Source: Chitinophaga pinensis DSM 2588 | GTDB lineage: Bacteria > Bacteroidota > Bacteroidia > Chitinophagales > Chitinophagaceae | Length of the DNA stretch: 64,000 bases | Reading direction: 5' to 3' | NCBI RefSeq assembly: GCF_000024005.1 | Contig: NC_013132.1 | Location: 3,714,001 to 3,778,000 of the forward strand | In this document: positions 5,326 through 60,755 of the stretch, piece by piece | Position numbering within the stretch: the stretch's first letter is position 1 | How the letters are laid out: every line of letters begins with the position of its first letter | The notes under the pieces: generated by a model | What the model saw: the letters and a program-made list of their open reading frames with translations, nothing else | What the model was told of the DNA's origin: nothing | The model's database searches: none | Made by a program: the position numbers and the translations under genes

Positions 5326-5335
5326 CCATATTCAT

Positions 5336-43009: not shown

Positions 43010-43022
43010 CCAGTAAGACACG

Positions 43023-43712: not shown

Positions 43713-44330
43713 TTGGATTTAACCGAATTGTCAGCCAGAACAGCATATGAAGAAATTGAGCTGATTTCCGCCTTTCAGCGAGGAGACAGAAAAGCTTTGC
43801 ACCAGGTATATACGCTCTATCAACAGTCACTTTGTTTTTTTACAGAGCAGCTGATCGGGGATACTATGGCGGCAGAGGACATTGTTTCAGAATGTTTTAT
43901 CAACGCTTTTCAGCGAAAAGAGGATTTTCCTTCCTTAGGACAATTGAAGTCTTTCCTGTTCACCGCAGCAAAAAATGCGGCACTTAATTATATAAAGGCG
44001 CAAAAACGCCATGATAATATTCATAATTCCATAGAAAGGGGGGCCGAACGTTTCTCAATAGATGTAGAGAATGCATATATAAAAACAGAAGTCTTACATA
44101 TTATATCAGGGGAAATAGAAAAATTACCACCACAATGCCGGCAGGTTGTACACCTGGCCATTATAGAAGGGAAAAGCGCTCCCGAAATCGCCGCTGAATT
44201 AGATATGGCTTATCAGACAGTGCTGAATCAAAAAGCCAAAGGGGTAGCATTACTGCGTACCGCCATCCTTAAAAATAAGTTACTTTCCTTGCCCATGCTC
44301 GTTTTAGCGTTGAATATTTTACACCGGTAA
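43713..44330 (+). CDS. ECF-type RNA polymerase sigma-70 factor
   Basis: Sigma region 2 is seen as AFQRGDRKALHQVYTLYQQS and the DTMAAEDIVSECFINAFQ block (about 51-68). Region 4 is seen as IEKLPPQCRQVVHLAIIEGK and SAPEIAAELDMAYQTVLNQK. The reading starts at a TTG (43713); no in-frame ATG gives a full region 2. It is followed 68 bp later by a FecR anti-sigma gene, then by SusC with an STN domain. This is the classical cell-surface signalling arrangement, so its target promoters probably include the SusC operon. Confidence 0.9.
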   Translation: MDLTELSARTAYEEIELISAFQRGDRKALHQVYTLYQQSLCFFTEQLIGDTMAAEDIVSECFINAFQRKEDFPSLGQLKSFLFTAAKNAALNYIKAQKRHDNIHNSIERGAERFSIDVENAYIKTEVLHIISGEIEKLPPQCRQVVHLAIIEGKSAPEIAAELDMAYQTVLNQKAKGVALLRTAILKNKLLSLPMLVLALNILHR

Positions 44331-44398
44331 AAAAAACTTAAAAAAAGTTTAAAGTAGACCGGTATATAAAGTGGAGTTAGTTGTTTTAGTAGTATAGC

Positions 44399-45592
44399 AT
44401 GACAGAAAAGAATCATTATATAGCCGCATTAATCGCTAAATATCTTGATAACAGCCTGAATGAAGCTGAGGAGATTGAGCTGACAGCATGGATAAATGCT
44501 GAAGCCCACCACCGTGATCTGTTTGAACAGATGACTGATCCCCAGCAGCTCACCACGCATCTGCAGCAGTTCTATACCTATGATTCAGACAAAATAATCC
44601 GTAAGATTAGCCAGCATATACCTGAATTTAATGACGAGCCTGTACGCATACGCCCTGTTTATCTGAGAAAATGGGGTTGGGCAGCAGCGATCGCCATGCT
44701 TTTAGTAGGTGGTTCTTATTACTGGGCATCACGTCTCCACAACAAACCGGCTGTAATAGCGTCAGTACCGGTCAACATTGAGCCTGGTAAACAAGGAGCC
44801 ATTCTTACACTGTCAGATGGCCGGGAAGTAGTCCTGGATAGTCTGCGCAGTGGTATAATAGCTAATCAGAGCGGTGCATCCATCGTCCTCTCCGAAGGAC
44901 AGTTAGTATACGATCCGACCACAACCGGAAATATGGATGCTCAGTATAATATAATGACTACACCCGCAGGCAGACAATTCCAGGTAACACTGCCCGACGG
45001 GACTAATGTATGGCTGAATGCGGCCAGTTCTATCAGGTTTCCTACCAGCTTCGTTGGGAATGAAAGAAGGGTAGAAATAACCGGAGAGGTATATTTTGAT
45101 GTCATAAAGAATGCAAATAAGCCTTTTATTGTAGCAGTTAAAGACAAGATTGATATAGAAGTCTTAGGTACTTCTTTTAATGTGAATGCATACGAGAACG
45201 AGCGCGCCATCCGTGCCACACTTATTAATGGTAGCATAAGGGTAGGAGTGCCATCAACCGATCATAAAAAGGCTGTAACACTACAGCAAGGCCAACAGGC
45301 GGGGATAATAAATAATAAGATCACCATAACAGATAATCAGGATCCGGAGAAAATATTAGCCTGGAAAAATGGATTGTTCAACTTTGACGGCGCCAACCTT
45401 GAAGAAGTCATGCGCGAGTTGGAACGATGGTATGACATAGAAGTGGTATATGAGAATGGTATTCCGAATGCAGATAAGTTTATCGGGGAAATGACCAGGC
45501 AGATTGCTTTAACAGACTTATTAGATATTTTAAAAAGATTTCAGGTCGACTTTAGGGTGGAGGGACGCAAGCTCATCGTAATAAACAAGTAA
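44399..45592 (+). CDS. FecR-family anti-sigma factor
   Basis: The N-terminal cytosolic anti-sigma helices (about 1-80) are followed by one membrane helix (WGWAAAIAMLLVGGSYYWAS, about 97-116). The periplasmic FecR domain has QFQVTLPDGTNVWLNAASSI and VEITGEVYFDVIKNANKPFI. The C-terminal DUF4974-like part reads LEEVMRELERWYDIEVVYEN. It holds the neighbouring ECF sigma factor until the STN domain of the SusC receptor signals substrate. Confidence 0.94.
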   Translation: MTEKNHYIAALIAKYLDNSLNEAEEIELTAWINAEAHHRDLFEQMTDPQQLTTHLQQFYTYDSDKIIRKISQHIPEFNDEPVRIRPVYLRKWGWAAAIAMLLVGGSYYWASRLHNKPAVIASVPVNIEPGKQGAILTLSDGREVVLDSLRSGIIANQSGASIVLSEGQLVYDPTTTGNMDAQYNIMTTPAGRQFQVTLPDGTNVWLNAASSIRFPTSFVGNERRVEITGEVYFDVIKNANKPFIVAVKDKIDIEVLGTSFNVNAYENERAIRATLINGSIRVGVPSTDHKKAVTLQQGQQAGIINNKITITDNQDPEKILAWKNGLFNFDGANLEEVMRELERWYDIEVVYENGIPNADKFIGEMTRQIALTDLLDILKRFQVDFRVEGRKLIVINK

Positions 45593-45678
45593 ACAACCAA
45601 AGCTATGCCGAAAGCGTAATTAATTACTGGAGGAACTCCGGTCAGGAGATGTATTGTCAAAAACTAACCAATAAAAAG

Positions 45679-45706
45679 AACGTCACGGATTGCGGCCGTG
45701 ACGTTT
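45679..45706. terminator. Hairpin between fecR and susC
   Basis: A perfect 10-bp stem, AACGTCACGG...CCGTGACGTT. The T run is weak (TTT), so it may attenuate rather than fully end transcription. It separates the sigma/anti-sigma pair from the transport genes. Confidence 0.5.
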
Positions 45707-45767
45707 AACATGACCTGGTTAGTCCATTAATGTCTTTTCGATTCACATTTATTAACAACCAAATCTG

Positions 45768-48700
45768 ATGCAATTTATGCAAAAAAAACGCTATTGGCCA
45801 CCCGATCGCCGGGTTACAAGCGCCAGCCTAACCAAAATCTTTCTGGCTATGAAACTGACCGCTGTATTACTAATTACCGTCATCTTGCAGGCCGCTGCCA
45901 CAGGGCATGCACAAACTATCTCTATATCAGGTAAAACTATACCTTACAAACAAGTTTTTTCTGCCATCAAGCAGCAAACCGGATATGTTGTATTCAGCAA
46001 TACAAATACCATCAGTGAAACCGCAACAGTATCAGTTTCCGCCAAGGATATGCCCTTAACGGAATTTCTGGATGAAATGCTGAAGGACCAGCCGGTCACT
46101 TATCTTATCAAGGACAAAACGATCGTTCTGTCACGGAAAGCTGCGGAAGTATTACCTCCAACTACCATCACCGGTACGATCCGTACCAGTACAGGGGAAT
46201 TGTTATCGGGTGTATCCGTGAGAATTAAAAATACCGTCAATGGTACGATCACCAACAACAGCGGTACCTTTTACTTCAATCACCTTCCTGAAAATACAGT
46301 GATCCAGGTTTCCATGCTGGGATTCGAATCGTTGGAAATCGCGGTGCAGAAATCTGCCAACGGATACTCTGCTTATACACTCAATAAAGCGCAGGCCAGC
46401 TCTTTGCTGGTGACAGAAGGTAATAATCTTGTATTGAATATTACCCTGAACAGGAAGGATTACGAAATGAATAATGTGGTGATTACCGGTTATATGAACG
46501 TCAACAAAGGTAACTATGTGGGCGCTGTATATTCTGTAAAAGCCGATGAGATAAAAATTGCGGGTGAAACCTCGATCGATCAGATGTTACAGGGGGTTGT
46601 TCCCGGTATGTCTGTAATAACACAGACGGGCCAGGTAGGCGGAAGTCCTAAGATCCGTATTCGTGGTACTTCAACTATTCTGGGTAATCAGGAACCACTC
46701 TGGGTTGTAGATGGTATCATTCAGCGTGATCCGCTTCCTATTCCGAATGGTAGTGGTTCGCTGGCAGGTGATGTTGCCGATCTCAGACTAATCGCATCTA
46801 ACGCTATTGCCTGGCTGAACCCTAATGATATTGAAACCATCACTGTATTGAAAGATGCGTCTGCTACCGCCATCTATGGTTCTCAGGCAGCCAACGGTGT
46901 AATCGTTCTTACTACCAAAAAAGCACGCCCTGGCCAGTTATCTGTTTCATATACTAACAGTCTGTCTGTGGGTCAGCGTCCTGATTATGGTATGTATGAT
47001 CTGATGAACTCCCAGGAGCTGATGCAGTTCTCCAAAGAAGTATACGCCAACCGCGACAGTTATACCAATACTGTTTTGCCAATTGGTTACGGTCAGCTTA
47101 TCCAGCAATTACAAAATAAAGAAATAGACTACCCTACATATCTGGCAAGGTATAGAAAAATGGAAAACCAGAATACAGACTGGTTTAAACTGCTTTTTCG
47201 TAATTCCTTTAACCAGAATCACAGTATCAGCATCTCCGGAGGAACAGAGAAGATCATGAACAGAACTTCCTTCAATGTGCAACAGCAGAAAGGAGAAGCT
47301 AAAGGAAATGATCTGAGTACTTTTTCCGCTTCATCTAATACGACCCTGAAATTTGGTAAGAAGATGACTGTAAACTTCCTGCTGAATGGTACTGTACGTA
47401 AGACTGATGGTTTCGCATATGGTGTGAATCCATTCGATTATGCCTATCAGACTGCCAGGACCATCCCGCTGTATAACGATGACGGAACATTTTTCTTTCA
47501 TGAGAAGGTAAGCCAGATCTCCAGTACTTCCTATCTCAATAAATTTTCTTACCTGTACAATATTCAGAACGAAATAGACAATACGGGTAACAGAAATAAT
47601 ACGACTACACTGGGATCTACTATCGATGTACGTTATGAGTTGGCAAAAGGGCTGGAATACCAGGGTCTGCTTTCTTATAGTTCAGCCACCTCCAACATCA
47701 AATCCTATGCGACCGAACTCTCTTACTTTGCTACGCAATACAGAGGGTATGAATTTGGTACGGTGTCTTCCAATAGCCCTGAAGAATTGGCCAGCCGTCT
47801 GCCTTTCGGAGGACTGGCACAGCTGGAAAGTGCATCCAACAGATCCTATACCGTAAGGAATGCCCTTATTTACAACCACTCATTTGCACAAAAGCATAAT
47901 ATGACCTTACAGGGTGGTATCGAAGCAAGATCTTCTCTTTTGGAAGGAAGCACCAATACCCGCTATGGTTATCTGCGCTACCGCGGAGAAAGCTTTGCAC
48001 CGGTGCCTTTGATGCCGGCAATGCTGACAAATTTTTCCGCGCCAAACCTGCATGAGGACATGCGACTGAATTCCAGGATCGTGAACCAGGAAAGCAATTT
48101 CCTGAGCGAATATTTCTCTGCTGTGTATGCATATGACGCCCGTTACATTTTCAACTTTAACGCGCGACTGGATGCCTCTAATCGTTTTGGCCAGGATAAA
48201 AACAAACGTTTTCAACCTACCTGGTCACTGGGTGGCAGATGGCGCCTTGCAAATGAAAAATTCCTTAACAACAACAACTGGCTGAATGCGCTGGATCTGT
48301 CTGCCACTTATGGTTATCAGGGTAACGCAGTGGAAGCCGTGTCTCCATACCTTATCGCCACAGACGGAGGGCTGAATGACCAGTTCAAACAATACACCCT
48401 TAATATTAAGTCTTTGCCCTACCCGGATTTAGGCTGGGAAAAAACCAAGACCTGGAACCTTGGGCTGGATGTTTCTGTATGGAATGGCCGATTCAATGCG
48501 ACAGCGAATTACTACAGGAAATCAAGTAATGTGCTGGCTTCCCGCCAGATACCTGTTGAAAACGGTATGGGTTCTGCAACCGTATTTGGCTCTCAGATAG
48601 AAAATGTGGGGTATGACCTGATTATAAGTGTTATCCCTGTTAAAACAAAGGACTTCAGCTGGCAGATTTCTGTGAATACTGGTCTGGCAAGAAACAAGGT

Positions 48701-49430
48701 GAAAGAGAATGAAAGAGTCAACCTGCTAGCCGACTATCTGGGCGGTCAGGCGATTGTGAATGGCGAGGCATACTCTACCTTCTATTCTTATTCCTATGCG
48801 GGACTTAACCACAACACCGGTATCCCTATGTTTAATAATCTGGATATCAAGCCTACTTCCAATGATCTTGATTTCCTCGTTAAATCAGGAAAACTGGAAC
48901 CCGATTTTTCAGGTGGTGCCAATACCATGTTCAGGTATAAGAATATATCCTTCAGTGCGCAGTTTGCAGTGGCGTTTGGCGCCAGCAAACGTCTGCCTTC
49001 ATTTTATAATGCAAGTGGCGCCCCAACTCCTGAACAGAATGTGCCACGTATCCTGAAAGAACGCTGGCAACATCCGGGAGATGAATTAAATACCAATGTG
49101 CCGGTAATCCCTCCAGGTAACCCCCGTTACTATGAGTTGACTTTACCGCAGTTAAATAAATCAACAACACTGACACCATATACCTTGTATAATGCATCTG
49201 ATTATATGGTGGGAAATGCTGATTTTATCCGTTGTCGTCAGATGTCACTGAATTATGAATTCACACAGTCGATACTCGAAAGAATCCATATTAAACGTCT
49301 GAGCACATCATTCAGTTTAACAAACCCTTTCCTGATCACATTTGATAAGAAATGGAGAGGTTATGATCCGGAAACAGTGGGCTGGCCGGCACGCAGACTG
49401 GCGTCGCTTTCATTTAACATGACACTCTAA
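45768..49430 (+). CDS. SusC/RagA-type TonB-dependent receptor with STN signalling domain
   Basis: The signal peptide is MKLTAVLLITVILQAAATGH-type after a short basic head. An STN/secretin-like domain (SISGKTIPYKQVFSAIKQQT, about 50-120) supports transduction to the FecR protein. A CarboxypepD_reg-like domain follows (about 130-235), then the plug (IKIAGETSIDQMLQGVVPGM, IRIRGTSTILGNQEPLWVVD, LKDASATAIYGSQAANGVIV) and a large beta-barrel ending SLSFNMTL. It imports a ligand delivered by the SusD-like lipoprotein next door. Ligand type cannot be read from sequence; the absence of glycoside hydrolases nearby argues against a classical glycan locus. Confidence 0.95.
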   Translation: MQFMQKKRYWPPDRRVTSASLTKIFLAMKLTAVLLITVILQAAATGHAQTISISGKTIPYKQVFSAIKQQTGYVVFSNTNTISETATVSVSAKDMPLTEFLDEMLKDQPVTYLIKDKTIVLSRKAAEVLPPTTITGTIRTSTGELLSGVSVRIKNTVNGTITNNSGTFYFNHLPENTVIQVSMLGFESLEIAVQKSANGYSAYTLNKAQASSLLVTEGNNLVLNITLNRKDYEMNNVVITGYMNVNKGNYVGAVYSVKADEIKIAGETSIDQMLQGVVPGMSVITQTGQVGGSPKIRIRGTSTILGNQEPLWVVDGIIQRDPLPIPNGSGSLAGDVADLRLIASNAIAWLNPNDIETITVLKDASATAIYGSQAANGVIVLTTKKARPGQLSVSYTNSLSVGQRPDYGMYDLMNSQELMQFSKEVYANRDSYTNTVLPIGYGQLIQQLQNKEIDYPTYLARYRKMENQNTDWFKLLFRNSFNQNHSISISGGTEKIMNRTSFNVQQQKGEAKGNDLSTFSASSNTTLKFGKKMTVNFLLNGTVRKTDGFAYGVNPFDYAYQTARTIPLYNDDGTFFFHEKVSQISSTSYLNKFSYLYNIQNEIDNTGNRNNTTTLGSTIDVRYELAKGLEYQGLLSYSSATSNIKSYATELSYFATQYRGYEFGTVSSNSPEELASRLPFGGLAQLESASNRSYTVRNALIYNHSFAQKHNMTLQGGIEARSSLLEGSTNTRYGYLRYRGESFAPVPLMPAMLTNFSAPNLHEDMRLNSRIVNQESNFLSEYFSAVYAYDARYIFNFNARLDASNRFGQDKNKRFQPTWSLGGRWRLANEKFLNNNNWLNALDLSATYGYQGNAVEAVSPYLIATDGGLNDQFKQYTLNIKSLPYPDLGWEKTKTWNLGLDVSVWNGRFNATANYYRKSSNVLASRQIPVENGMGSATVFGSQIENVGYDLIISVIPVKTKDFSWQISVNTGLARNKVKENERVNLLADYLGGQAIVNGEAYSTFYSYSYAGLNHNTGIPMFNNLDIKPTSNDLDFLVKSGKLEPDFSGGANTMFRYKNISFSAQFAVAFGASKRLPSFYNASGAPTPEQNVPRILKERWQHPGDELNTNVPVIPPGNPRYYELTLPQLNKSTTLTPYTLYNASDYMVGNADFIRCRQMSLNYEFTQSILERIHIKRLSTSFSLTNPFLITFDKKWRGYDPETVGWPARRLASLSFNMTL

Positions 49431-49441
49431 CATTATAGCGC

Positions 49442-50869
49442 ATGAAACGTAAGTTATTTTTAATAGCCGGTCTGGCCGGTCTGCTTACTTTGAGCAGTTG
49501 TAAAAAATTTTTGGAGGAGAAATCGCAGAGTGACGTGATTCCTAAAACGGCGACAGATTTCAGAGAATTGCTGATTGGATCCGGATATATGACTAATTCA
49601 GAGCCATTGAATTTTCTTTATTTCATGGATGATGACGTTGATTTCTTCCTGGAATATGCAAATGATCCATCTAATGTAGTAGGTTCTTATGATGCACAGG
49701 TGAACTACCTCTGGTATACCTGGCAGCCTAAACTGGCCGATATAAATGGCGTGGGCGTGCTGATTGCAGAAGACCCTTCAGCTACCGCCTATGCACAGTA
49801 TTACACGAAAATATTAGGCTGTAATGCTGTATTGGAAAATATAGATAAATCTATCGGTTCCCAGCAGGAAAAAGATCGTGTAAAAGCAGAGGCACTGGCG
49901 GTACGGGCAATGTATTATTTCCGGCTTGCAAATGTATATGGAGAGCCTTATAACTACAACCCAAAGTCGCTTTGTATACCATTAAAGGTGACATCAGGCA
50001 TCGTGTCAACACCCTTGCCGCAGGCCACAGTCGGAGAAGTGTATGACCTGGTCGTACATGACCTGCTGGAAGCATCATCATTGATGGATCCCTTGCAGAT
50101 TATGCGCAGAGATTATCATATCAATCAACCTGCCATTCATATTTTATTGTCAAGAGTATATCTCTTTATGGAGAAATGGAAAGAAAGTGTGGCAGAAGCC
50201 AATAAGGTGTTTGAAGAGGGGGGTAAGATACTGGACATGACCACGCTTGCTACAGAGTCTGGTACATGGCTTACTTATAATAATGCTGAGGTAGAGTGGC
50301 TGTTTGGTGGCAACACACAGCCTAACCAGAGTACTTATGTGCCTGCTGCAAGGTTCCTGTCCACCTACGATAGCAACGACGCCAGGTACAGGGTCGGCTT
50401 TTCTCTGCAAACAAATACCAATGTACAACTGGTGTCTAAGCTGCCTACAGGACTTGATCTGGCACAAACCTTACGCTCTTCAGAAGCTTTGCTGAACAGG
50501 GCAGAAGCCAATGTGCAACTGGGTGAACTGGGTAGCGCCCTGAAAGACCTGAATGATCTCCGGCGTAAACGTATTGAGGGGTATGCGGATGAAGTGATCA
50601 CCGATAAGGTAACCTTGCTGCAGGCAGTACGGGATGAGCGTCGTAAGGAATTTGCATACGAAGGTTTCCGTTGGTTTGATCTGCGTCGTTATGGTATGCC
50701 TGAGATCCAACATCGTTATCAGCATGATCTGGGGGAAAGTGTTTTACAATACAAGCTTACTAAGAACGATGCTATGTATGTATTGCCTTTTCCGACAAGT
50801 GTGATATTGAAGAATTCGGCACTTAAACAGAACCCTTCTGGTCAGATGCCAGACAGAGTAGGACAATAA
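49442..50869 (+). CDS. SusD/RagB-family substrate-binding lipoprotein
   Basis: The signal peptide ends in the lipobox LSSC (Cys20). The TPR-like SusD fold is seen in AEALAVRAMYYFRLANVYGE (about 150-169), HILLSRVYLFMEKWKESVAE and EALLNRAEANVQLGELGSAL, with the conserved end VRDERRKEFAYEGFRWFDLR. At 475 aa it is the normal length. It captures the ligand above the SusC barrel. It starts 11 bp after SusC. Confidence 0.94.
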   Translation: MKRKLFLIAGLAGLLTLSSCKKFLEEKSQSDVIPKTATDFRELLIGSGYMTNSEPLNFLYFMDDDVDFFLEYANDPSNVVGSYDAQVNYLWYTWQPKLADINGVGVLIAEDPSATAYAQYYTKILGCNAVLENIDKSIGSQQEKDRVKAEALAVRAMYYFRLANVYGEPYNYNPKSLCIPLKVTSGIVSTPLPQATVGEVYDLVVHDLLEASSLMDPLQIMRRDYHINQPAIHILLSRVYLFMEKWKESVAEANKVFEEGGKILDMTTLATESGTWLTYNNAEVEWLFGGNTQPNQSTYVPAARFLSTYDSNDARYRVGFSLQTNTNVQLVSKLPTGLDLAQTLRSSEALLNRAEANVQLGELGSALKDLNDLRRKRIEGYADEVITDKVTLLQAVRDERRKEFAYEGFRWFDLRRYGMPEIQHRYQHDLGESVLQYKLTKNDAMYVLPFPTSVILKNSALKQNPSGQMPDRVGQ

Positions 50870-50896
50870 TAATACTAACAAGCAATTCATTCATCT

Positions 50897-51820
50897 ATGA
50901 AGCATATATTTATTATCACCTGTCTTTGCAGTGTTGTGTTGTATTCCTGCAAAAAGGACGTAGCTATCGGCCCCGAGATCGATGTACCGGTAGATTATGT
51001 TTTACCACAGGGTGATGCACCAGCGGAGGCCAATGATAAAATTCAATCCCTTTACAATACCTACGGTTCCTATTTCCTCTATAATTTCACACAGAAAGAC
51101 TTCCTGTGGGTGCCGTCAACGGGTGGAGGAAATTCTAAAATTGATACAGCCGTGCTGGCAAATCCTGCCTACACCATGGATATGCTGCAATTCCTGGATG
51201 ATATCTGGCTGAAGTTTTTACCTGAAGACTTCAAAAAATCCCAGGGTATCCCTTATCGCGTATTTATGGCCGATACTATTAAACAGTATCGTGTAGGATA
51301 TCCGCCGGGAAGAGAATACCTCTATTTCGACTACAAAGTAATAGGAAAATCCATCGCCTTTGCCGGCATGAACGCATCACTGCGCACCATGTCATCAGCT
51401 GATAAAGTGGCAAAAAGGAATATATTGATTCAGGTCATCTGGAATTACTATATCCAGAATAAGATCATGGATTTCCCCGCTGCTTTCTATGATATCAGTG
51501 ATTATGTGACTTACCCGGCATCTCCGATCAATGCGTCCAACCCTGCTAACGTCGATGCATTCAGACAAAGAGGATTCTTACCAGCCTCTTATTTGCCAAA
51601 CGGAAATCCATCTGAGTGGTACTACGGAACCTATTCCTGGCCGCAAGCCAAGAGCAATGATCAGACGACCTATCTTCTTGCTATCCTGACACGTACCGAC
51701 GCGCAGATGGCATCATATCTTTCATATCCTATGATCAAACAGAAGTTCGACTTATTAGTGAACTACTATAAGTCAAAATTCAATATTGACGTACGCGCCA
51801 TCGCGAACGCCACTTATTGA
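50897..51820 (+). CDS. SusCD-associated lipoprotein, metallohydrolase-like without a visible HExxH
   Basis: The signal peptide has a lipobox (LYSC, Cys18). The overall shape and some later segments (DFPAAFYDIS near 196, GFLPASYL, and the final FDLLVNYYKSKFNIDVRAIA) resemble the substrate-import-associated zinc metallohydrolase lipoproteins that sit behind SusC/SusD genes in many Bacteroidota. In those I expect an HExxH helix just before the DFP segment. Here that position reads LIQVIWNYYIQNKI, so the zinc site is not there. If the assignment is right, this is a pseudoenzyme, perhaps a third ligand-binding subunit. Family assignment is from memory of the pattern and not certain. Confidence 0.6.
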   Translation: MKHIFIITCLCSVVLYSCKKDVAIGPEIDVPVDYVLPQGDAPAEANDKIQSLYNTYGSYFLYNFTQKDFLWVPSTGGGNSKIDTAVLANPAYTMDMLQFLDDIWLKFLPEDFKKSQGIPYRVFMADTIKQYRVGYPPGREYLYFDYKVIGKSIAFAGMNASLRTMSSADKVAKRNILIQVIWNYYIQNKIMDFPAAFYDISDYVTYPASPINASNPANVDAFRQRGFLPASYLPNGNPSEWYYGTYSWPQAKSNDQTTYLLAILTRTDAQMASYLSYPMIKQKFDLLVNYYKSKFNIDVRAIANATY

Positions 51821-51832
51821 TCCCTAACCCTT

Positions 51833-51867
51833 CCAATTGTCCGGGGTTTAAGTCCCCGGGCAATTGG
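51833..51867 (+). terminator. Hairpin ending the SusC/SusD/lipoprotein unit
   Basis: A 14-bp stem, CCAATTGTCCGGGG...CCCCGGGCAATTGG (one T-G pair), without a clear T run. It is strong enough to stop or process the transcript between the lipoprotein and the ABC genes. Confidence 0.6.
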
Positions 51868-51959
51868 AAGTTAGTTACTCCCAGATCTTTTATTGTTGCT
51901 GGTAATTGTGTAAGCCGTGCTTACGCCTGCTATTTTATTTATTAAACAATCCGTAATGA

Positions 51960-52889
51960 ATGGAACATACTATCGTAAAAGTTGAAAACTTATCTCACCG
52001 GTACGCGTCACAGTGGGCGGTAAGAGATATAAATTTTGAGATCAGCAGCCAGGGAGTAGTCGGACTATTAGGGTCTAACGGAGCTGGTAAATCTACCACA
52101 ATGAATATCATTTGTGGGGTGCTGAAGCAGTCTAAAGGGGAAGTATTTATCAATGGCGTCAACCTGAAAGAAAATCCTGTAGCTGCTAAACGCAATATTG
52201 GCTTTATGCCGCAGAAACTGCCCCTGTATCTCGACTTTACGGTAGAGGAATACCTGACCTACTGTGCTGAACTGAGAATGGTAGAAAAAACACAGGTAAA
52301 GAAAGCGGTGGCCGATGCATTGGAAAGATGCGGCGTAGCGCATTTCAGAGAGCGTCTCTTACGTAACCTCTCCGGTGGTTATCAGCAACGTGTGGGTATC
52401 GCACAGGCGATCGTACACAACCCGAAGTTTGTCGTACTGGACGAACCTACCAATGGTCTCGACCCGAATCAGATAGTGGAAGTACGTAACCTGATCAAAC
52501 AGATCGCATTGGACCGTGCAGTTCTGCTTTCTACGCACATTCTCACAGAGGTACAGGCTACCTGCAGAGAGATCAAAATGATCGAAGAAGGACAGATGGT
52601 ATTCTCCGGTTCACTGGAAATGTTTGATAACTACATAGAACCCAATACACTTGTAGTCACGCTGGATACACCTCCTGTAAGTGATGCACTGATGAGCGTG
52701 GAAGGTATCAGATCCGTAGAGCAGATTGCTCCTTTCAGATACCGTCTGGGTTATGATGGTGAAAAGAAAACACCACAACGCTTTGCTGCTGCCAGTGTGA
52801 GCCAGGATTGGGGACTGATGGAACTGATCATTGAAAAGAGCTCACTTGATGAGGTATTTGCCAGACTGTCAAAGAAAAACAATAAGTAA
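51960..52889 (+). CDS. ABC transporter ATPase (GldA/ABC-2 type)
   Basis: Walker A GSNGAGKST (38-46), signature LSGGYQQRVG (about 138), and Walker B VVLDEPTNGLDP (about 157-168), with a C-terminal extension typical of ABC-2 exporters (about 225-309). The downstream gene supplies permease and GldG-like domains, so the two form one ABC complex. The closest well-known relatives are GldA, used with GldF/GldG for gliding in Flavobacteria; here the neighbours suggest export or remodelling linked to the SusCD unit. Confidence 0.9.
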   Translation: MEHTIVKVENLSHRYASQWAVRDINFEISSQGVVGLLGSNGAGKSTTMNIICGVLKQSKGEVFINGVNLKENPVAAKRNIGFMPQKLPLYLDFTVEEYLTYCAELRMVEKTQVKKAVADALERCGVAHFRERLLRNLSGGYQQRVGIAQAIVHNPKFVVLDEPTNGLDPNQIVEVRNLIKQIALDRAVLLSTHILTEVQATCREIKMIEEGQMVFSGSLEMFDNYIEPNTLVVTLDTPPVSDALMSVEGIRSVEQIAPFRYRLGYDGEKKTPQRFAAASVSQDWGLMELIIEKSSLDEVFARLSKKNNK

Positions 52890-52910
52890 AATCCGATAAC
52901 AAGATATTAA

Positions 52911-55214
52911 ATGAGACGTATTTTTAAGATCGCCAAGGCAGAATTGTTCACCTTGTTCTATTCGCCGATCGCCTGGATGATATTGATAGTTTTTACTTTC
53001 CAGACGGGAATGGCCTTTGCTGAGCACCTGCAGGAGGTTGTTCGCGCTAAAAACATTGGTTTGGGTAACTACTTTATTACGGCAGGCATTTTCTCCGGTC
53101 AGCTCGGTTTATTTTCAACCGTTCAGGGGTATCTATATCTGTATATGCCGTTGCTTACCATGGGGCTGATGAGCCGTGAACTGAGCAGTGGTTCTATTAA
53201 ATTATTGTACTCTTCACCTGTAACCTCTGCACAGATCATTTATGGTAAATTCACGGCCATGATGCTTTACAGTCTGATACTGATCGGCATACTGATGATA
53301 TATGTGGTGATAGGTATGTGCACCGTAGAAAACTTTGAACTGGCTCCCGTATTATCAGGCTTATTGTCATTATACCTGCTACTGTGTGCGTATGCGGCTA
53401 TTGGCCTGTTTATGTCATGCCTTACTTCCTATCAGGTAGTGGCTGCATTAGGAACGCTGGTGCTGCTGGCAGCACTCAGTTATATGAAACAGGTAGGGCA
53501 GGATATTGATTTTGTTCGTGATATTACTTACTGGTTGTCTATTTCCGGTCGTTGTAATGAGATGATCATGGGATTGATCTGTAGCGAAGATGTACTGTAC
53601 TTTGTGATAGTTATCGCTATGTTCCTCACGCTGAGCATCCAGAAATTACAGGCTAACCGTACTCATGCTTCTTTTGCAGTAGTATGGGGGAGATACGCAG
53701 TAGTGGTGGTTGGGGCGATGCTGGTGGGCTATGCTACTTCCCGTCCTATGCTCATGGCTTATTGGGATACGACAGAGACGAAACGTAATACACTGACGCC
53801 CAACAGTCAGGCTGTGATGGCTAAGCTCGATGGAGACCTCACTATCACCACTTATGTGAACATCCTCGACAGAGAATACTACAACGGTATTCCAAGCCAG
53901 GTAAATGAAGATAAGGAACGTCTAAAACAGTATATCCGTTTCAAACCGGAAACCAAACTGAAATACGTTTACTACTACGATAAACCAAGCAATAATCCAC
54001 GACTGGATTTTGTTTATAAGAATAAAACGCTCGCTGAAATGGCTGCTAAGGAAGCAGAGATCCGTGATCTGGATATCAATATGTTCCTGACGCCTGAGCA
54101 GATCAAGAAACAGGTCAACCTGACGGATGAGGGCAATACCTTTGTTCGTTTAGTAGAAAGAGGTAACGGGCAGAAAGCATGGCTGAGGATCTATGAGGAT
54201 ATGATGAAATTCCCGGATGAAGGCGAGGTAACGGCTATGTTCAAGAGAATGGTGATGAAGCTGCCTAAAATCGGTTTCCTGCAGGGGCATGGAGAAAGAG
54301 GAATCGAAGGAGACAGGATCAAAGACTATACACTCTTCTCTTCTGTAAAGACCTTTCGTTATGCACTGACTAACCAGGGTTGTGATGTGGAAGCTCTTGA
54401 CCTGACAGGTGATAAAGAGATTCCAAAGGGTATCGATATCATCGTTATCTCAGATATGAAAGAAGCATTGGATAGCGCTACTAAAAAGAAACTGGACGTA
54501 TATATTGCTAATGGCGGTAACCTCGCTATTACCTTAAAGCCAGGCTCTCCTGTAATGGAAGCTTTCATTGAGCAGTTCGGTGTTAAAACTATTCCTGGTC
54601 AGCTGGTGCAGCCTAAACAGGATGTAGCGGCAAACGTTGTAATGGCAGTTGCTACACCAGCAGCAGAGAAAATTGCGCCGATATACAAGTTGATGCGTGC
54701 ACAACGCAGATATGTAGGAATGGTGAAAAGCGCGGGTTTAGTATTTAGTCCTGAAAAAGGCTTTAACGCAGTTCCGGTATTGCAGACAGTAGATACCATG
54801 AAAACATGGAATGAGGTTAAAACGATTGACTTCGTCAATGATTCTGCTTCCGTAGATGTTGCTGCCGGAGAAAAAGTGGACAGCTTTGTAACTGCCTATG
54901 CTTTGTCAAGAAAAGTAGGCAACAAGGAACAGCGTATTATGATCCTGGGAGATGCCGATTGTATCAGCAACGGTGGTATGAATCCTCCAATCAGACGTTA
55001 TGGCGCATCTAACTTCTCATTGATCCCGGGCATGTTCCATTGGTTATCTTATGGCACCGTACCGGTAGATGTAAGTCGTCCGCCTTCTACTGATAACGAT
55101 ATTTCCCTGACCAAAGAAGGTGTAAAAGGACTGAAATACTTTCTCATGTGGGTTATTCCGGGTATTTTGCTGATTGGTAGCACTATCTTATTGATCAGAA
55201 GAAAAAGAAAGTAA
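52911..55214 (+). CDS. ABC-2 permease fused to GldG-like domain (GldF-GldG fusion)
   Basis: Residues about 1-245 hold six membrane helices of an ABC-2 permease (FTLFYSPIAWMILIVFTFQT at the first; LLTMGLMSRELSSGSIKLLY is the conserved loop). A further helix follows near 260-280, then a large extracytoplasmic GldG/ABC_transp_aux domain (about 290-730; NTLTPNSQAVMAKLDGDLTI, GFLQGHGERG, VIISDMKEAL-like strands), and a final helix (LMWVIPGILLIGSTILLI) with a basic tail. In GldF/GldG the two parts are separate proteins. It starts 21 bp after the ATPase gene. Confidence 0.85.
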   Translation: MRRIFKIAKAELFTLFYSPIAWMILIVFTFQTGMAFAEHLQEVVRAKNIGLGNYFITAGIFSGQLGLFSTVQGYLYLYMPLLTMGLMSRELSSGSIKLLYSSPVTSAQIIYGKFTAMMLYSLILIGILMIYVVIGMCTVENFELAPVLSGLLSLYLLLCAYAAIGLFMSCLTSYQVVAALGTLVLLAALSYMKQVGQDIDFVRDITYWLSISGRCNEMIMGLICSEDVLYFVIVIAMFLTLSIQKLQANRTHASFAVVWGRYAVVVVGAMLVGYATSRPMLMAYWDTTETKRNTLTPNSQAVMAKLDGDLTITTYVNILDREYYNGIPSQVNEDKERLKQYIRFKPETKLKYVYYYDKPSNNPRLDFVYKNKTLAEMAAKEAEIRDLDINMFLTPEQIKKQVNLTDEGNTFVRLVERGNGQKAWLRIYEDMMKFPDEGEVTAMFKRMVMKLPKIGFLQGHGERGIEGDRIKDYTLFSSVKTFRYALTNQGCDVEALDLTGDKEIPKGIDIIVISDMKEALDSATKKKLDVYIANGGNLAITLKPGSPVMEAFIEQFGVKTIPGQLVQPKQDVAANVVMAVATPAAEKIAPIYKLMRAQRRYVGMVKSAGLVFSPEKGFNAVPVLQTVDTMKTWNEVKTIDFVNDSASVDVAAGEKVDSFVTAYALSRKVGNKEQRIMILGDADCISNGGMNPPIRRYGASNFSLIPGMFHWLSYGTVPVDVSRPPSTDNDISLTKEGVKGLKYFLMWVIPGILLIGSTILLIRRKRK

Positions 55215-55228
55215 AAACATTTGCTGGT

Positions 55229-56581
55229 ATGGGCTTAATGACGGATAAACAAACACTGAATGATCTGAATATCTTCGGTAAAAGCGGTACGAACGGTGGT
55301 ATATATTCCATCTTTAACCGTACGCATACAAGAGGAGGATCAGAGCTGCTGGAAGAAATGTTCCGTAATCCATTGTCGGAAGTAGATGCAGTGAATGCAC
55401 GTAGTACTACTATCCGTTTATTTGGAGCAAACGGGATCGCGTTTCCTTATGACGCTACCTGGTTTGACGGTGCAGAACAATATCTGCTGGATACGGATGA
55501 ACGCAGCCGTTTGAGTGATCAACAGGACAATCTGAAGAGAAAATTAAACCAGCTCATAGCAGGAGACAATGCGTATAAGGCGATTGAGAAAGGTGTGGAA
55601 AGCCTGATCGCGATCTTGCAGACTACTATTCAGTTTGCCGATACAATACGCCGGCAGATGACAGGCACTCCTTACAGTAAAGAGTTGGCCGTTATAGAAG
55701 AACTTCTGAAGGAGAATGAACTACAGGCGATCCTGCAGGAACCAGCTAAACAAAAATTACCTTTTGCCAAGGTGGCGGAGTATGATAAAATACTCCGCTT
55801 CCGGCAACGGGATGTTATGAACAGGCTGTTACGGCTACTTTATCAGACAGACGTTTATATTTCTGTAGCACGTATCGCGGCAGAGAAGCAATTCTCTTTC
55901 CCGCTCGCTTTGCCGCGTGAACAGCAAACCGTTATCCTGGAGGATTTTTACCATCCTTCACTAACGACGCCTGTGGCGAACACCATCAACATTTCACCAT
56001 CCAGTAATGTCATATTTCTGACGGGTGCGAACATGGCGGGTAAATCCACTTTCATGAAGGCGCTGGGTATCTGTATGTACCTGGGGCAGATGGGATTCCC
56101 GGTACCCGCTTCAAAAATGGAGTTTTCAGTGAGAGATGGCATCTTCACCACCATCAACCTGCCGGATAACCTGAGCATGGGCGCCAGCCACTTCTATGCG
56201 GAAGTACTGCGTATCAAAAACGTGGCGAGGGAGTTAAGCAGGGATAAATACCTGTTTGTCATCTTTGATGAACTGTTCCGCGGAACAAACGTAAAAGATG
56301 CACATGAAGCTACAATTGCCGTTACCAGTGCAATTGCCCGCAGAAAGAACTGCATGTTTGTAGTGTCTACACACATTATTGAAGCGGGTGATGTATTGAG
56401 GGAAAAGTGTGCAAATATTAATTTCGTATTTCTGCCGACGCTGATGGAAGGTAATAAACCTGTATACACGCACAAGCTGCAATCAGGTATTACGGCTGAC
56501 AGACATGGTATGGTAATTATTAAAAACGAAGGTATCCTGGATATCCTGGCGAGAAAAAAAACAGTAAATAAGAACGCATGA
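55229..56581 (+). CDS. MutS-like ATPase lacking the mismatch-recognition domain (paralogue 1)
   Basis: The 450-aa protein has the MutS lever/core (domain III-like, helical, about 10-230) and the MutS ATPase domain: Walker A FLTGANMAGKST (about 262-273), the MutS-type FPVPASKMEF segment, Walker B LFVIFDELFRGTN, and the switch His in VVSTHI. Domains I and II are absent, so there is no Phe-x-Glu mismatch reader and classical repair is unlikely. It starts 14 bp after the ABC permease gene and overlaps the next paralogue by 4 bp (ATGA), which means tight co-translation; a heterodimer is plausible. Confidence 0.85.
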   Translation: MGLMTDKQTLNDLNIFGKSGTNGGIYSIFNRTHTRGGSELLEEMFRNPLSEVDAVNARSTTIRLFGANGIAFPYDATWFDGAEQYLLDTDERSRLSDQQDNLKRKLNQLIAGDNAYKAIEKGVESLIAILQTTIQFADTIRRQMTGTPYSKELAVIEELLKENELQAILQEPAKQKLPFAKVAEYDKILRFRQRDVMNRLLRLLYQTDVYISVARIAAEKQFSFPLALPREQQTVILEDFYHPSLTTPVANTINISPSSNVIFLTGANMAGKSTFMKALGICMYLGQMGFPVPASKMEFSVRDGIFTTINLPDNLSMGASHFYAEVLRIKNVARELSRDKYLFVIFDELFRGTNVKDAHEATIAVTSAIARRKNCMFVVSTHIIEAGDVLREKCANINFVFLPTLMEGNKPVYTHKLQSGITADRHGMVIIKNEGILDILARKKTVNKNA

Positions 56582-57891
56582 GCTTTATTGCAGACAAACA
56601 AATGCTAGACGATTTGTCCTTGTTAGGTAAATTTAATCCTGGTTCTGTTTTCAGTCTTTTTAACCAGGTAAAAACCAGGGGCGCCGAGAAATTACTGGAT
56701 GCCATGTTCCTGCATCCCTTATCGGATGTGGAAGCGATCAACAACAGAAGTGCTGTTTTCCGCTATTTCAATCAACATCCTGTCAGCTTCCCTTTTGATG
56801 AAAAGCAGCTGGAACGTATGGAATCCTATATGGATGAAGGCGGTGACGGGAGTTATATCATGGCATTATGGGAATTAAGCCGGAAGAAAGTAGCATCAGT
56901 ACTGGTAAAAGATGATACCTATGACCTGACCTTAACAGGTATAGAAAGCAGCATCTCCGTATTAAAAGCCTGTGAAAAGCTACTCAAACAGCTGGAGCAG
57001 GAAGGACGCGATAACGATCAGCCATGGGTAAAATGGTCAGAGATCGTACGCACGATCACTACAGATGACCGGTTGAAAGATTTCTCTAAGCCTGCCAGGT
57101 CTTTAATGGATAATGTACGGCTGCATCATATGCTGACAGGCGTATTTCGTAGTCAGCTGAAAACGCTCCTTGAACTGATCTATGAAACAGACCTGTACCT
57201 GGCAGTAGCAGGCGTAGCGAAGGCAAAAGGCTTCTCCTATGCACAGGCATTACCGAAGGATCGGAATATACTGGAAGCTAAAGGACTGAGACATCCGGGG
57301 CTTGATAAGGGCGTCGCTAACTCATTGTCCTTTAATGCCGGTACGAATGTCCTGTTTCTTACCGGTGCAAACATGGCGGGTAAGTCAACATTGATGAAGT
57401 CGACAGGTATTCTCATTTATCTTGCGCATATGGGATTCCCGGTAGCAGCCACTGAAGTGAAATTTTCTATATTGGATGGTATTTATTCTTCCGTGAATGT
57501 GCCCGATGACCTGAATAAAGGATATAGTCACTTCTATGCGGAAGTACTGCGCGTGAAAAAGGTAGCAGAAGAAGTAGCTACAGATAAATCTTTGTTTGTC
57601 ATCTTTGATGAGCTGTTCAAAGGTACAAACGTAAAAGATGCTTATGACGCTACCCTGGCGGTAACTGAAGCGTTCACTGATTTTACAAATTGTTTCTTTA
57701 TCATTTCCACGCATATATTTGAAGTCGGACATGCATTGAATAATGGTGGATCACAGATCGCGTTTGAATTCCTTCCAACCATCATGAACAATAACGTGCC
57801 GCAGTATACATATCAGCTGCAGAAAGGTATTACTACTGACAGACAGGGCATGATCATTATTGAGAATGAAGGAATACTGGATATGTTATAG
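56578..57891 (+). CDS. MutS-like ATPase lacking the mismatch-recognition domain (paralogue 2)
   Basis: 437 aa, a paralogue of the previous gene with the same architecture: core helices about 10-230, Walker A FLTGANMAGKST (about 260-271), FPVAATEVKF, Walker B LFVIFDELFKGTN, and IISTHI. It lacks domains I and II. The two proteins share ordered blocks (SHFYAEVLR, GTNVKDA, GMVIIKNEGIL/GMIIIENEGIL), so they came from a duplication and probably pair as MutS subunits do. It is followed 26 bp later by the M16 peptidase gene. Confidence 0.85.
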   Translation: MSFIADKQMLDDLSLLGKFNPGSVFSLFNQVKTRGAEKLLDAMFLHPLSDVEAINNRSAVFRYFNQHPVSFPFDEKQLERMESYMDEGGDGSYIMALWELSRKKVASVLVKDDTYDLTLTGIESSISVLKACEKLLKQLEQEGRDNDQPWVKWSEIVRTITTDDRLKDFSKPARSLMDNVRLHHMLTGVFRSQLKTLLELIYETDLYLAVAGVAKAKGFSYAQALPKDRNILEAKGLRHPGLDKGVANSLSFNAGTNVLFLTGANMAGKSTLMKSTGILIYLAHMGFPVAATEVKFSILDGIYSSVNVPDDLNKGYSHFYAEVLRVKKVAEEVATDKSLFVIFDELFKGTNVKDAYDATLAVTEAFTDFTNCFFIISTHIFEVGHALNNGGSQIAFEFLPTIMNNNVPQYTYQLQKGITTDRQGMIIIENEGILDML

Positions 57892-57917
57892 TCTAAATTG
57901 ATAATCCCTGAGGGGGG

Positions 57918-60755
57918 ATGTTACAACAAAAAAAACAAATTATGCACTATCGCCATTGGGCTGCAGCAGGGTTAATGCTGTTGCTGGTAAATGGAAAAGC
58001 AGCTTTTGCGCAACAGCAGGGCCAGCCTATGCCTCTTGATACCGCAGTTCGTACAGGTAAGTTGCCAAACGGATTTACCTATTATATCCGCAGAAATGCA
58101 GAGCCGGAAAAAAGAGCGTTCTTTTACCTGGTAAATAAAGTAGGTTCCATTTTAGAAGATGAAGACCAACTGGGTCTGGCACACTTCATGGAGCACATGA
58201 ACTTCAACGGTACCACGCATTTTAAGAAGAATGACCTGATTGATTATCTACAGAAAGCAGGTGTAAGATTTGGTGCAGACCTGAATGCTTATACCTCTTT
58301 TGATGAAACCGTATACCAGTTGCCTATTCCTACTGACAATCCCGCTATGGTAGGTAAAGGACTGAATATCATGCGTGACTGGGCACAGGAAGCGATCCTG
58401 GATGCGGATGATGTAGATAAGGAAAGAGGCGTTATCCTGGAAGAGAAAAGATTACAGGAGGGCGTTGGTAACAGAATACAACAACAGACTATTCCGGTAT
58501 TGTTCAATAATTCAAGATATGCTGTCAGACAACCTATTGGTACTGACACTGTTCTGAAGCACTTCCCGGTAGCCGCTATCCACCGTTTTTACAAGGACTG
58601 GTACAGACCCAATCTGCAGGCCCTGATAGTGGTAGGCGACATTAATGTGGATGCTGTTGAAAAACAGATCAGGAAACAGTTTGCTGATCTGAAGAATCCG
58701 GCTAATGAGCGTCCACGTCCGGAATATAAAATCGAGCTGACAGGCAAAAATCAGTTCAGAACGATTACGGATCCCGAACTGACAGCAACAGAACTTGAGT
58801 TGCTGGTAAAACATCCGGGTTCCAAACTGATCACCACTGCCGATTACAGGAATGCCATGAAAACATCCCTGTTTAATCAGATGCTGAGTCATAGAATCGG
58901 AGAGTTAAGCCAGCAGGAAAATCCTCCATATCTGGGTGTTAAAGCGGGTGTTGGTGGTTTCTCCGGTGGTCTGGAGCAATTCACTTTCTCCATTACAGCC
59001 AAACCTGGTAAACTGCAGGAAGCTTTCACAGATACCTGGCAGTTGATAGAACAGGTAAAACGTGATGGTTTTACCCAGGCTGAATTAGACAGGGTGAAGC
59101 TGGCCTATGCGACAAGCATGGATGCCGCTAAACAGGAAAAAAGCAAAACGCCTTCCAGCAGTTATGTATCGGAATATCAGCGTTTGTTCCTGGATGGTGC
59201 TGCTGCACCTGGTTTCGACTGGGAATATGATTTCGTGAAAGCGACATTGCCCGGTATCACCTTAGCGGATATCAAAGAGGTAGGTACGCATTTCATTACG
59301 ACTACCAACAGGGACATCTTCCTGGTAGCGCCTGAAAAGGAACAAGGTAATCTGCCTGATTCCGCTACTATCGAAGGATGGTTTAATAAAATGGCCGTTG
59401 CCGCTATTAAGCCTTATAACGATTCTACCGCTACCAGTGTGTTGCTGAAAACCATTCCTGCAGGTGGTAAAGTCGTGTCTCAGTCTGCTGTTGCCGCATT
59501 GGATATCAAACAGCTGACGCTGAGCAATGGTATCAAGGTGTGGCTGAAGTCGACCAACTATGCCAATGACCAGATTCAGTTCATGTCTTTTGCACCGGGA
59601 GGTATCAATAAATATTCCAATGAAGAATTTCCGACAGCCGCCAATACGATCGGTATTATCGGTGGTAGCGGTTTGGGCGAATATTCTCCTGTTCAGTTAT
59701 CAAAAATGCTGAACGGAAAATCAGCAGCTGTAGGTGCATATATCGGTGGTCGTAGCCAGGGTATCAACGGTGGTTGCAGAACAGAAGATCTTGAAACGGC
59801 ATTACAGCTGATTTACATGCGCTACACAGCGCCACGTAAAGACCCTGTTTTATTCAGCAACGCGATTGCCCGTTCTAAAGAAGCGGTTAGAAACAGGTAT
59901 GATGATCCTAACAATGTGTTCAGAGATACCGTTAGTGCTGTACTGAGTGGTTATAGCTATCGTACAAGTCCGGTTACACTGGAAAGACTGGATAGTATCA
60001 GCCTTGATAAAGCGTTGGCTATCTATAAAGACAGGTTTGCAGATGCTTCTCAGGCGAATTTCGTGTTTGTCGGTAACTTCAATGCAGATAGCATTCAGCC
60101 CCTGTTGGAGCGTTATCTCGGTGCATTGCCTGCATTAAACCTGAAAGAGAAAGGTGTCATCCTTCACGGAGAGGTACCGAAAGGCAAACTGGTAAAAGTA
60201 GTAGAAAAAGGGAAAGGTAATAAAGCTACGGTGTTGCTGGTATACAACGGCGAATGTGCATACAGTGCTGAAGAAAACCTGCAACTGCAGGCGCTGACAG
60301 AAGTATTGCAATACAGATTGCTGACCAGCCTGAGAGAGAAAGCAGGAGAGGTGTATACGCCATCTGCCCAGGGTAGCATGATGAAAGAGCCTGATCAGCG
60401 ATTTGCTATCAACGTTTCTTTTGGTTGCGCACCAGAGCATGTAGACCACCTGGTAGGCCTGGTAGCACAGGATATCGCCGATCTGCAAAGCAAAGGCGCT
60501 ACCAGCGATGAATTGAAGAAGTTTAAAGCCGGATACAGAACGCAGATTGAACTGCAGGTAAAAAGCAATGAATTCTGGTTGCAATACATTGCAGGCAGAC
60601 TGGAAAGAGAGGAAGAACTGAAAGCATTACCTGATGTGGAAAAGAGACTCAAGCAGATTACGGGTAATTCTGTTAAGTCGGCTGCCACTAAGTACCTGAA
60701 CGGTGAGAATGTAATCCAGTTTGTAGCATTGCCGGAGAAGGCAGAGGCGAAATAG
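57918..60755 (+). CDS. Exported two-domain M16 zinc metallopeptidase (PqqL-like)
   Basis: The signal peptide (cut near AAFAQQ, 28-33) sends it to the periplasm; the start could also be the Met at 57942. The active site is intact: inverted zinc motif HFMEH (89-93, in LAHFMEHMNFNGTTHF) with the third ligand Glu in KERGVILEEKRLQ (about 177-180). A second, non-catalytic M16 half runs from about 525 (SNGIKVWLKSTNY). At 945 aa it matches PqqL/insulinase-type proteases, which degrade peptides in a closed chamber. Last gene of the ABC-MutS-M16 row, followed by a terminator. Confidence 0.92.
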   Translation: MLQQKKQIMHYRHWAAAGLMLLLVNGKAAFAQQQGQPMPLDTAVRTGKLPNGFTYYIRRNAEPEKRAFFYLVNKVGSILEDEDQLGLAHFMEHMNFNGTTHFKKNDLIDYLQKAGVRFGADLNAYTSFDETVYQLPIPTDNPAMVGKGLNIMRDWAQEAILDADDVDKERGVILEEKRLQEGVGNRIQQQTIPVLFNNSRYAVRQPIGTDTVLKHFPVAAIHRFYKDWYRPNLQALIVVGDINVDAVEKQIRKQFADLKNPANERPRPEYKIELTGKNQFRTITDPELTATELELLVKHPGSKLITTADYRNAMKTSLFNQMLSHRIGELSQQENPPYLGVKAGVGGFSGGLEQFTFSITAKPGKLQEAFTDTWQLIEQVKRDGFTQAELDRVKLAYATSMDAAKQEKSKTPSSSYVSEYQRLFLDGAAAPGFDWEYDFVKATLPGITLADIKEVGTHFITTTNRDIFLVAPEKEQGNLPDSATIEGWFNKMAVAAIKPYNDSTATSVLLKTIPAGGKVVSQSAVAALDIKQLTLSNGIKVWLKSTNYANDQIQFMSFAPGGINKYSNEEFPTAANTIGIIGGSGLGEYSPVQLSKMLNGKSAAVGAYIGGRSQGINGGCRTEDLETALQLIYMRYTAPRKDPVLFSNAIARSKEAVRNRYDDPNNVFRDTVSAVLSGYSYRTSPVTLERLDSISLDKALAIYKDRFADASQANFVFVGNFNADSIQPLLERYLGALPALNLKEKGVILHGEVPKGKLVKVVEKGKGNKATVLLVYNGECAYSAEENLQLQALTEVLQYRLLTSLREKAGEVYTPSAQGSMMKEPDQRFAINVSFGCAPEHVDHLVGLVAQDIADLQSKGATSDELKKFKAGYRTQIELQVKSNEFWLQYIAGRLEREEELKALPDVEKRLKQITGNSVKSAATKYLNGENVIQFVALPEKAEAK

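Follow-up and report, generated by a model that had tools for sequence, protein, structure and literature searches.

A SusCD-linked envelope unit with an ABC/GldFG machine and a MutS-type ATPase pair in Chitinophaga pinensis: a candidate system for peptide or protein ligands

Among the closest described systems to the locus considered here are the RagAB/SusCD uptake units with an extracytoplasmic function (ECF) sigma factor and a FecR-type anti-sigma factor, of which RagAB is reported to be implicated in protein uptake (PMC11817032). In the stretch of 64,000 nucleotides of Chitinophaga pinensis DSM 2588 analysed in this work (NC_013132.1, positions 3,714,001 to 3,778,000; hereafter the window, whose own numbering is used throughout), ten open reading frames (ORFs) follow each other on the plus strand at 43713-60755, from an ECF sigma factor through an M16 protease, as given by the ORF list and by Pfam and NCBIfam scans. 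This unit resembles RagAB/SusCD in the plug and STN domain of its SusC, in its SusD lipoprotein and in the ECF sigma and FecR genes directly upstream, and differs from it by the addition of an ATP-binding cassette (ABC) machine with a GldF-GldG fusion (ABC/GldFG), of a swappable peptidase and of a pair of MutS-type ATPases (MutS A and MutS B), no glycan enzyme being matched. In the portion of the open-licence literature consulted, no published description of a unit combining SusCD, ABC/GldFG and a MutS pair was found.

Conservation of the unit and its core

A search for MutS B in 99 genomes, the source genome included, rendered matches at 1e-40 in 60/60 genomes of the genus Chitinophaga; in 18 of these there is a single match, which we take to be a distant single gene. 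A set of 86 loci was built from the window, 83 loci from the B-type matches listed and two from a phylum search (L038-L122). On the same strand upstream of the MutS pair, these loci bear GldFG (83 loci), the ABC ATPase (80), SusD (80), SusC (79), FecR (74) and the sigma factor (72), and the pair itself, or an A-B fusion, is present in 82. Gene calls depend here on a caller that keeps the longest ORF, so that antisense ORFs masked two MutS A genes (L070, L090) and, probably, one SusD gene (L233), and contig ends truncate L103, L108, L121, L230 and L232; L091 has an extra ORF between MutS A and B. Spacing is tight, with junctions of at most 60 bp for SusC-SusD (78/79), ABC-GldFG (77/80), GldFG-MutS A (77/80) and MutS A-MutS B (72/77). 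Although SusC genes are common in the source genome (56 scored of 205 first-look candidates), we roughly estimate that SusC plus SusD would stand directly upstream of a random gene in a few per cent of cases by chance, versus 79-80 of 86 observed. Recurrence over the 86 and the named loci, together with the confinement of similarity to the unit described below, led us to reject chance neighbours. The proposal of a single unit made in the first-pass annotation is thus borne out beyond the source genome, and the conservation found elsewhere favours the unit over the outcome set there as its refutation, namely a neighbourhood limited to this genome.

At least 568 relatives of MutS B were found in named genomes. 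Among the best 80 of these, 69 have SusD, ABC and GldFG genes on the locus strand, a count that requires only the same strand within a locus of about 21 kb, some loci being shorter; by group, the set was found in 19/19 loci of Sphingobacteriaceae (Pedobacter, Mucilaginibacter, Sphingobacterium) and in 23/24 of Chitinophaga. These best 80 overlap the 86-locus set (e.g. L125, L038). In broader samples, both including the source genome, MutS B was matched at E<=1e-60 in 3/395 genomes of the phylum and GldFG in 7/395 genomes of the class. The unit is frequent in the genus Chitinophaga and patchy elsewhere.

The GldFG fusion rendered 121 matches in 44 of the 60 genus genomes, the other 16 being without a match; 86 of these matches belong to MutS-pair loci or to the window, the remaining 35 being located outside. 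Of the latter (33 fetched and two from the source genome), 32 have SusC and SusD together with ABC/GldFG, and the three not counted are two copies at contig ends (L230, L232) and one without a called SusD (L233); another of the 35, L216, bears a lone MutS-type gene. The gene order is sigma-ABC-GldFG-FecR-SusC-SusD in L203, L220 and L222, and SusCD is present in 5/5 class-level loci fetched (L240-L244). In a GldFG tree, made by a quick method from 123 rows with some long branches, so that the counts of changes are rough, MutS presence changes 7 times versus ca. 34 in shuffles, and the peptidase label changes 14 times. The SusCD genes beside GldFG outside MutS loci and the few changes on the tree indicate that, by gene content, the fixed core of the unit is made of the ECF sigma factor, FecR, SusC, SusD, the ABC ATPase and the GldF-GldG fusion, and that the MutS-type pair, the peptidase, the TlpA thioredoxins and extra lipoproteins are add-on modules. 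The MutS pair and M16 had been taken in the first-pass annotation as integral parts, a view that has to be given up, since both fall outside the invariant core (32/35 GldFG copies; M16 absent from 3/14 relatives).

A comparison of the whole window with three named loci and with 14 relatives sharing its unit type showed similarity at the DNA level only inside the unit. In 13 of the 14 relatives the similarity begins at 43623-43833, and in L044 at 44969; it reaches 60736-60740 in 11 relatives and stops where MutS B ends (57885-57890) in the three that lack M16. The flanks compared were short, ca. 1-2 kb per side for the 14 and, for the named loci, ca. 7 kb on the downstream side, and therefore document different surroundings rather than a mechanism of transfer. 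The source genome holds four such units, located in the window and at 3.26, 3.62 and 1.62 Mb, and we are apparently dealing with a multi-copy, movable class of envelope units in the Bacteroidota. Protein distances are correlated for SusC-MutS B (rho 0.56), GldFG-MutS B (0.64), ABC-GldFG (0.89) and MutS A-MutS B (0.78), and only at 0.23 for FecR-MutS B, all five values being at the permutation floor (p<=0.002, 52 loci); this analysis, uncorrected for ancestry, used the 65 of 86 loci with all eight genes, thinned to 52, and 500 permutations. Median identity is 27% for SusC/SusD, 59% for the ABC ATPase and 52-54% for the MutS proteins, the far greater variability of SusC/SusD being as expected if SusCD sets ligand specificity.

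The window unit and its modules

All features of the window unit are on the plus strand. It starts with the ECF sigma factor (43713..44330; 205 aa with the called TTG start; above the Pfam cut-offs for Sigma70_r2 and r4_2), which scores 120.6 bits with TIGR02985 (cut-off 126.4), followed by the FecR-type anti-sigma factor (44399..45592; PF04773 and PF16344 above cut-off), the SusC/RagA-type TonB-dependent transporter with an N-terminal STN domain (45768..49430; TIGR04056, PF07660) and the SusD/RagB lipoprotein (49442..50869; PF07980, PF14322; lipobox-like LSSC). SusC reaches 590 bits with TIGR04056 (cut-off 368) and has SusD directly 3', which places the two among SusCD/RagAB uptake units. No glycan enzyme was matched among the ten proteins by Pfam or NCBIfam, as had been noted earlier, so that the unit does not qualify as a polysaccharide utilization locus; in relatives, the glycan-enzyme check covered the accessory genes scanned as representatives. 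After a lipoprotein treated below come the GldA-like ABC ATPase (51960..52889; PF00005) and the GldF-GldG fusion (52911..55214; PF12679, PF09822), with an ABC-2 permease part. Hydrophobic segments of GldFG extend up to residue 275 and reappear at the C-terminus (741-763), and the large middle domain of ca. 465 residues between them we take to be extracytoplasmic. Five units with trypsin-like proteases (L072, L087, L091, L099, L100) have two consecutive GldFG-type genes.

Gaps are short at SusC-SusD (11 bp), SusD-lipoprotein (27 bp), ABC-GldFG (21 bp), GldFG-MutS A (14 bp), MutS A-MutS B (-4 bp) and MutS B-M16 (26 bp), and longer after the sigma gene (68 bp), before SusC (175 bp) and before the ABC gene (139 bp). 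Strong terminator-like hairpins were found by the terminator scan 5' of the unit at 43022 and, with a T-tract, at 60779..60814, closing it. The first-pass annotation had described this row as nine plus-strand genes; ORFs, place and strand agree with ours and the gene identities (sigma, FecR, STN-bearing SusC, SusD, ABC, GldFG, MutS pair, M16) agree with Pfam and NCBIfam, the count being ten.

The lipoprotein encoded between SusD and the ABC gene (50897..51820) matches no Pfam family and scores 17.1 bits with TIGR04549 (cut-off 75). In predicted fold it matches the putative Zn metallopeptidase 4l7a, and the HExxH motif is absent from this protein and from all of the 18 relatives examined (0/18), so that it is probably a pseudo-peptidase, for which the earlier term "degenerate metallohydrolase" was fair. 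Matches of the model to other zincins had low Z and were not taken as kinship. A different lipoprotein family of 255 aa, with a weak DUF4397 match, lies between SusD and ABC in 31/86 loci (e.g. L120 8563-9330) and is found mainly in units of the S41 subtype.

Between the pseudo-peptidase and the ABC gene there is a GC-rich hairpin with a 17-pair stem (51830..51870), which had been proposed, at 51833, to split the unit into two transcripts. The hairpin is real, a strong stem following the lipoprotein stop in 14/15 loci of the window subtype, the window included, with differing arm sequences and absent in L040 (z-scores from mononucleotide shuffles), but it does not appear terminator-like, having no T-tract and not being among the sites of the terminator scan. 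A second, weak hairpin followed by CTGCTATTTT (51908..51926) was detected by the scan as a weak terminator-like site, and similar sequence precedes the ABC gene in the listed relatives of the window subtype. Since the median junction before ABC is 29 bp (after the 255-aa lipoprotein) or 32 bp (after SusD) in the two commonest other arrangements, two transcripts would at most be a feature of the window subtype, where the 51830 hairpin may adjust the amounts of the SusCD and ABC parts relative to each other.

MutS A (55229..56581; PF05192, PF00488) and MutS B (56578..57891; PF00488) overlap by 4 bp, the median across loci being also -4 bp, and natural A-B fusions occur in L099, L119 and six further proteins. 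Walker A is present as GANMAGKST in 84/84 MutS A proteins and is found in 80/80 MutS B; Walker B reads DELFRGT in 81/84 A and DELFKGT in 79/80 B, which places both in the MutS ATPase superfamily. Pfam at E<=0.01 gives domains III and V only, with none of the mismatch-recognition domains I and II in A or B, and the predicted model of MutS B agrees with E. coli MutS starting at residue 264, sequence and fold being closest to MutS, MSH and MutS2. Scores fall below the cut-offs of the MutS equivalog PRK05399 (A 143.0, B 117.1; cut-off 480 bits), the MutS2 model (84.8, 78.9; 400 bits) and the KamC model NF052383 (110.7, 109.7; 300 bits). The overlap and natural fusions, the kept ATPase motifs, the absent recognition domains and the partial similarity to KamC, by its NCBIfam name a reactivase of a protein, lead us to read the pair as a heterodimeric ATPase serving a membrane machine, probably not DNA repair. 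In an alignment around a natural A-B fusion, single A and B proteins were stacked on one stretch, and the invariant columns are all in the first half. MutS B has 6670 relatives at E<=1e-30 among 8000 candidates scored; the named ones among the 120 matches listed are called DNA mismatch repair protein, MutS-related or MutS domain, with one hypothetical. True mismatch repair was rejected because of the unmatched cut-offs and recognition domains, and a defence system because PADLOC matches are lacking for MutS B and weak for A. Around a single MutS-like gene at 8.876 Mb of the same genome (L205), 14 kb of sequence gave no match to Sus, ABC or GldFG.

The M16 protease (57918..60755; PF00675, PF05193) has a signal-like N-terminus and the zinc motif HFMEH, and its HxxEH pattern, kept in 13/13 relatives, together with the two Pfam matches assigns it to peptidase family M16; the source genome holds no close paralog (best 29% over part). 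Considering the first same-strand gene within 250 bp after MutS B, the 86 loci have S41 (30), M16 (14), S1 (5), others (13) or none (24), so that M16, S41 or S1 is directly 3' of MutS B in 49. Accessory proteins were family-tested as representatives, which confirmed S41 and a trypsin/HtrA-like protein. Rarer peptidases are a subtilisin S8 (L076), an M1 (L086) and a tail-specific protease (L068), the last two each with a sister in the other of their two loci, and L048 has a serine beta-lactamase-like hydrolase in the accessory place. M16 is directly after GldFG in five units without a MutS pair (L212, L215, L217, L241, L243), occupies at least three separate parts of the GldFG tree and is absent from 3/14 close relatives of the window unit. 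TlpA-type thioredoxins recur among accessory genes, and the printed S41, S1, M16, M1 and tail-specific proteins start, in our reading, with signal-like stretches. By family matches, one peptidase is replaced by others of unrelated families, or is missing altogether, around a constant core, and it is chiefly on this swapping that we base the proposal of a peptide or protein ligand, which had already seemed a reasonable guess.

Elsewhere in the window, a Gabija-type pair of adjacent genes (13123-15698, minus strand; PADLOC, GajA 358.7 bits, GajB 172.3 bits) adjoins a gene for a caspase-domain protein (PF00656; 11503-12903, plus strand). The region 1534-6847 (plus strand) holds genes for two proteins, one weakly matching RHS repeats and the other a DUF6443 protein, after which a 952-aa ORF (6813-9671) matches no Pfam family. 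A 754-aa protein (37708-39972, plus strand) has two ABC ATPase stretches and is possibly UvrA-like.

A possible envelope system and its alternatives

A peptide or protein ligand would bind SusCD, helped in the window unit by the pseudo-peptidase lipoprotein, and the STN domain of SusC would signal via FecR to the sigma factor, switching the unit on. SusC would carry the ligand into the periplasm, where M16, or S41, S1, S8 and M1 in sister units, would cut it, TlpA opening its disulfides where present. At the inner membrane, ABC/GldFG would use ATP to transport, or otherwise act on, the ligand or its products via the GldFG middle domain, and the cytosolic A:B heterodimer would be an ATP-driven clamp, devoid of mismatch-recognition domains, partnering ABC/GldFG or the substrate. 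That the whole forms an envelope unit for a peptide or protein ligand, with A:B as its dedicated partner, appears to us an evenly balanced proposition. More tentatively, A:B might be a heterodimeric motor of the MutS family that has turned from DNA to a role in membrane transport, forming with ABC/GldFG and an inducible SusCD pore one trans-envelope peptide/protein system, a movable cassette whose protease is exchanged per ligand.

Several observations weigh against this reading. ABC-2 permeases are mostly exporters, and peptide uptake through the inner membrane is left unexplained. The MutS pair and the protease are missing from many units: in 24/86 MutS loci, MutS B is followed by no gene on its strand within 250 bp, and M16 was recognised in 6/40 tree units without the MutS pair, where other peptidases were not systematically sought. 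A true exception is L053, where the MutS pair occurs with SusCD and a double TlpA but GldFG is missing, so that the pair is not strictly tied to ABC/GldFG, and L115 has ABC/GldFG/MutS and no SusCD upstream in the stretch examined. Long gaps are frequent at the FecR-SusC and sigma-FecR junctions, the distance correlations can partly reflect shared ancestry, and L084 carries an F5/8 type C and BT_3987-like protein, which would fit a glycan ligand there as well.

Because ABC-2 permeases usually export, the main rival is defence against peptide antibiotics or secreted proteins, in which a toxic peptide would be sensed at SusC, destroyed by peptidases and pumped out by the ABC-2 permease, the MutS pair being a stress ATPase. 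The permease family, the varied peptidases, the several copies in many genomes, the divergent SusC/SusD (27% median identity) and the cassette-like borders would all fit; SusCD with TonB, however, would import the peptide, many sister units have no recognised peptidase and no resistance equivalog reached cut-off among the matches listed for the window proteins, so that we consider this rival unlikely. It is less probable still that the MutS pair is a cytosolic, MutS2-like quality control directed to DNA or ribosomes and merely co-regulated with the Sus unit: sequence and fold are nearest MutS, MSH and MutS2, and one listed MutS2 entry is by its title a collided-disome complex, but recognition domains were not found, scores are well below the MutS, MutS2 and KamC cut-offs, and the linkage to ABC/GldFG/SusCD is tight across dozens of divergent copies. 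Export and maturation of a small peptide, a bacteriocin or other ribosomally synthesised and post-translationally modified peptide, with SusCD for re-uptake or signalling, would agree with the permease, peptidases, thioredoxins and ECF regulation; we judge it quite improbable, no modification enzyme being matched among the ten window proteins, where small precursor ORFs were not searched for. Two independent operons joined by chance, a SusCD half and an ABC-MutS-M16 half, could account for the 139-bp gap with hairpins that separates the halves in the window subtype, yet the halves are linked in 79-80/86 loci and in 32/35 GldFG copies outside MutS-pair loci, and the two arrangements most common apart from this one have median junctions of 29-32 bp, so that conservation already contradicts this highly improbable option.

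If MutS-type proteins of this kind do work in envelope transport, their labels would amount to a widespread annotation error in the Bacteroidota, the MutS fold would have a new job, and SusCD units would gain an inner-membrane partner open to testing. The SusCD link of GldFG outside MutS loci and the adjacency of M16 to GldFG make the coupling testable by gene removal.

Comparison with known systems

The pseudo-peptidase shares with TIGR04549, the substrate import-associated zinc metallohydrolase lipoproteins, its lipoprotein nature and the 4l7a fold, and differs in score and in having no HExxH; 4l7a we take to be a member of that family, whose position after SusD is presumably the same as in the window unit. 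GldA-GldF-GldG of gliding Bacteroidota resemble the inner-membrane machine in having an ATPase, an ABC-2 permease and a GldG-like domain, whereas the GldF and GldG parts are fused in the window unit. Scores with the gliding equivalogs TIGR03522 (270.7 bits, cut-off 402.6), TIGR03518 (71.3, 288.5) and TIGR03521 (33.9, 389.9) all lie below cut-off, and the source genome has a gldF-like gene (244 aa) and a separate gldG-like one (566 aa) elsewhere (L206 6859-9395), distinct from the fused GldFG of the Sus units; on both grounds, true gliding genes were rejected. KamC (NF052383), the lysine 5,6-aminomutase reactivase ATPase, differs in that its cut-off is not reached and in that no aminomutase was found among the ten window proteins, and it is alike in being a MutS-like protein named for its action on an enzyme, not on DNA. 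As for MutS, MSH and MutS2, the A and B proteins are of 437-450 aa, adjacent or fused, with E. coli MutS aligning only from residue 264-265, and their stretch up to Walker A is presumably ca. 87 residues shorter than in E. coli MutS; they have in common with these proteins the core-lever and ATPase fold and the Walker motifs, and form, as MSH heterodimers do, a set of two different subunits.

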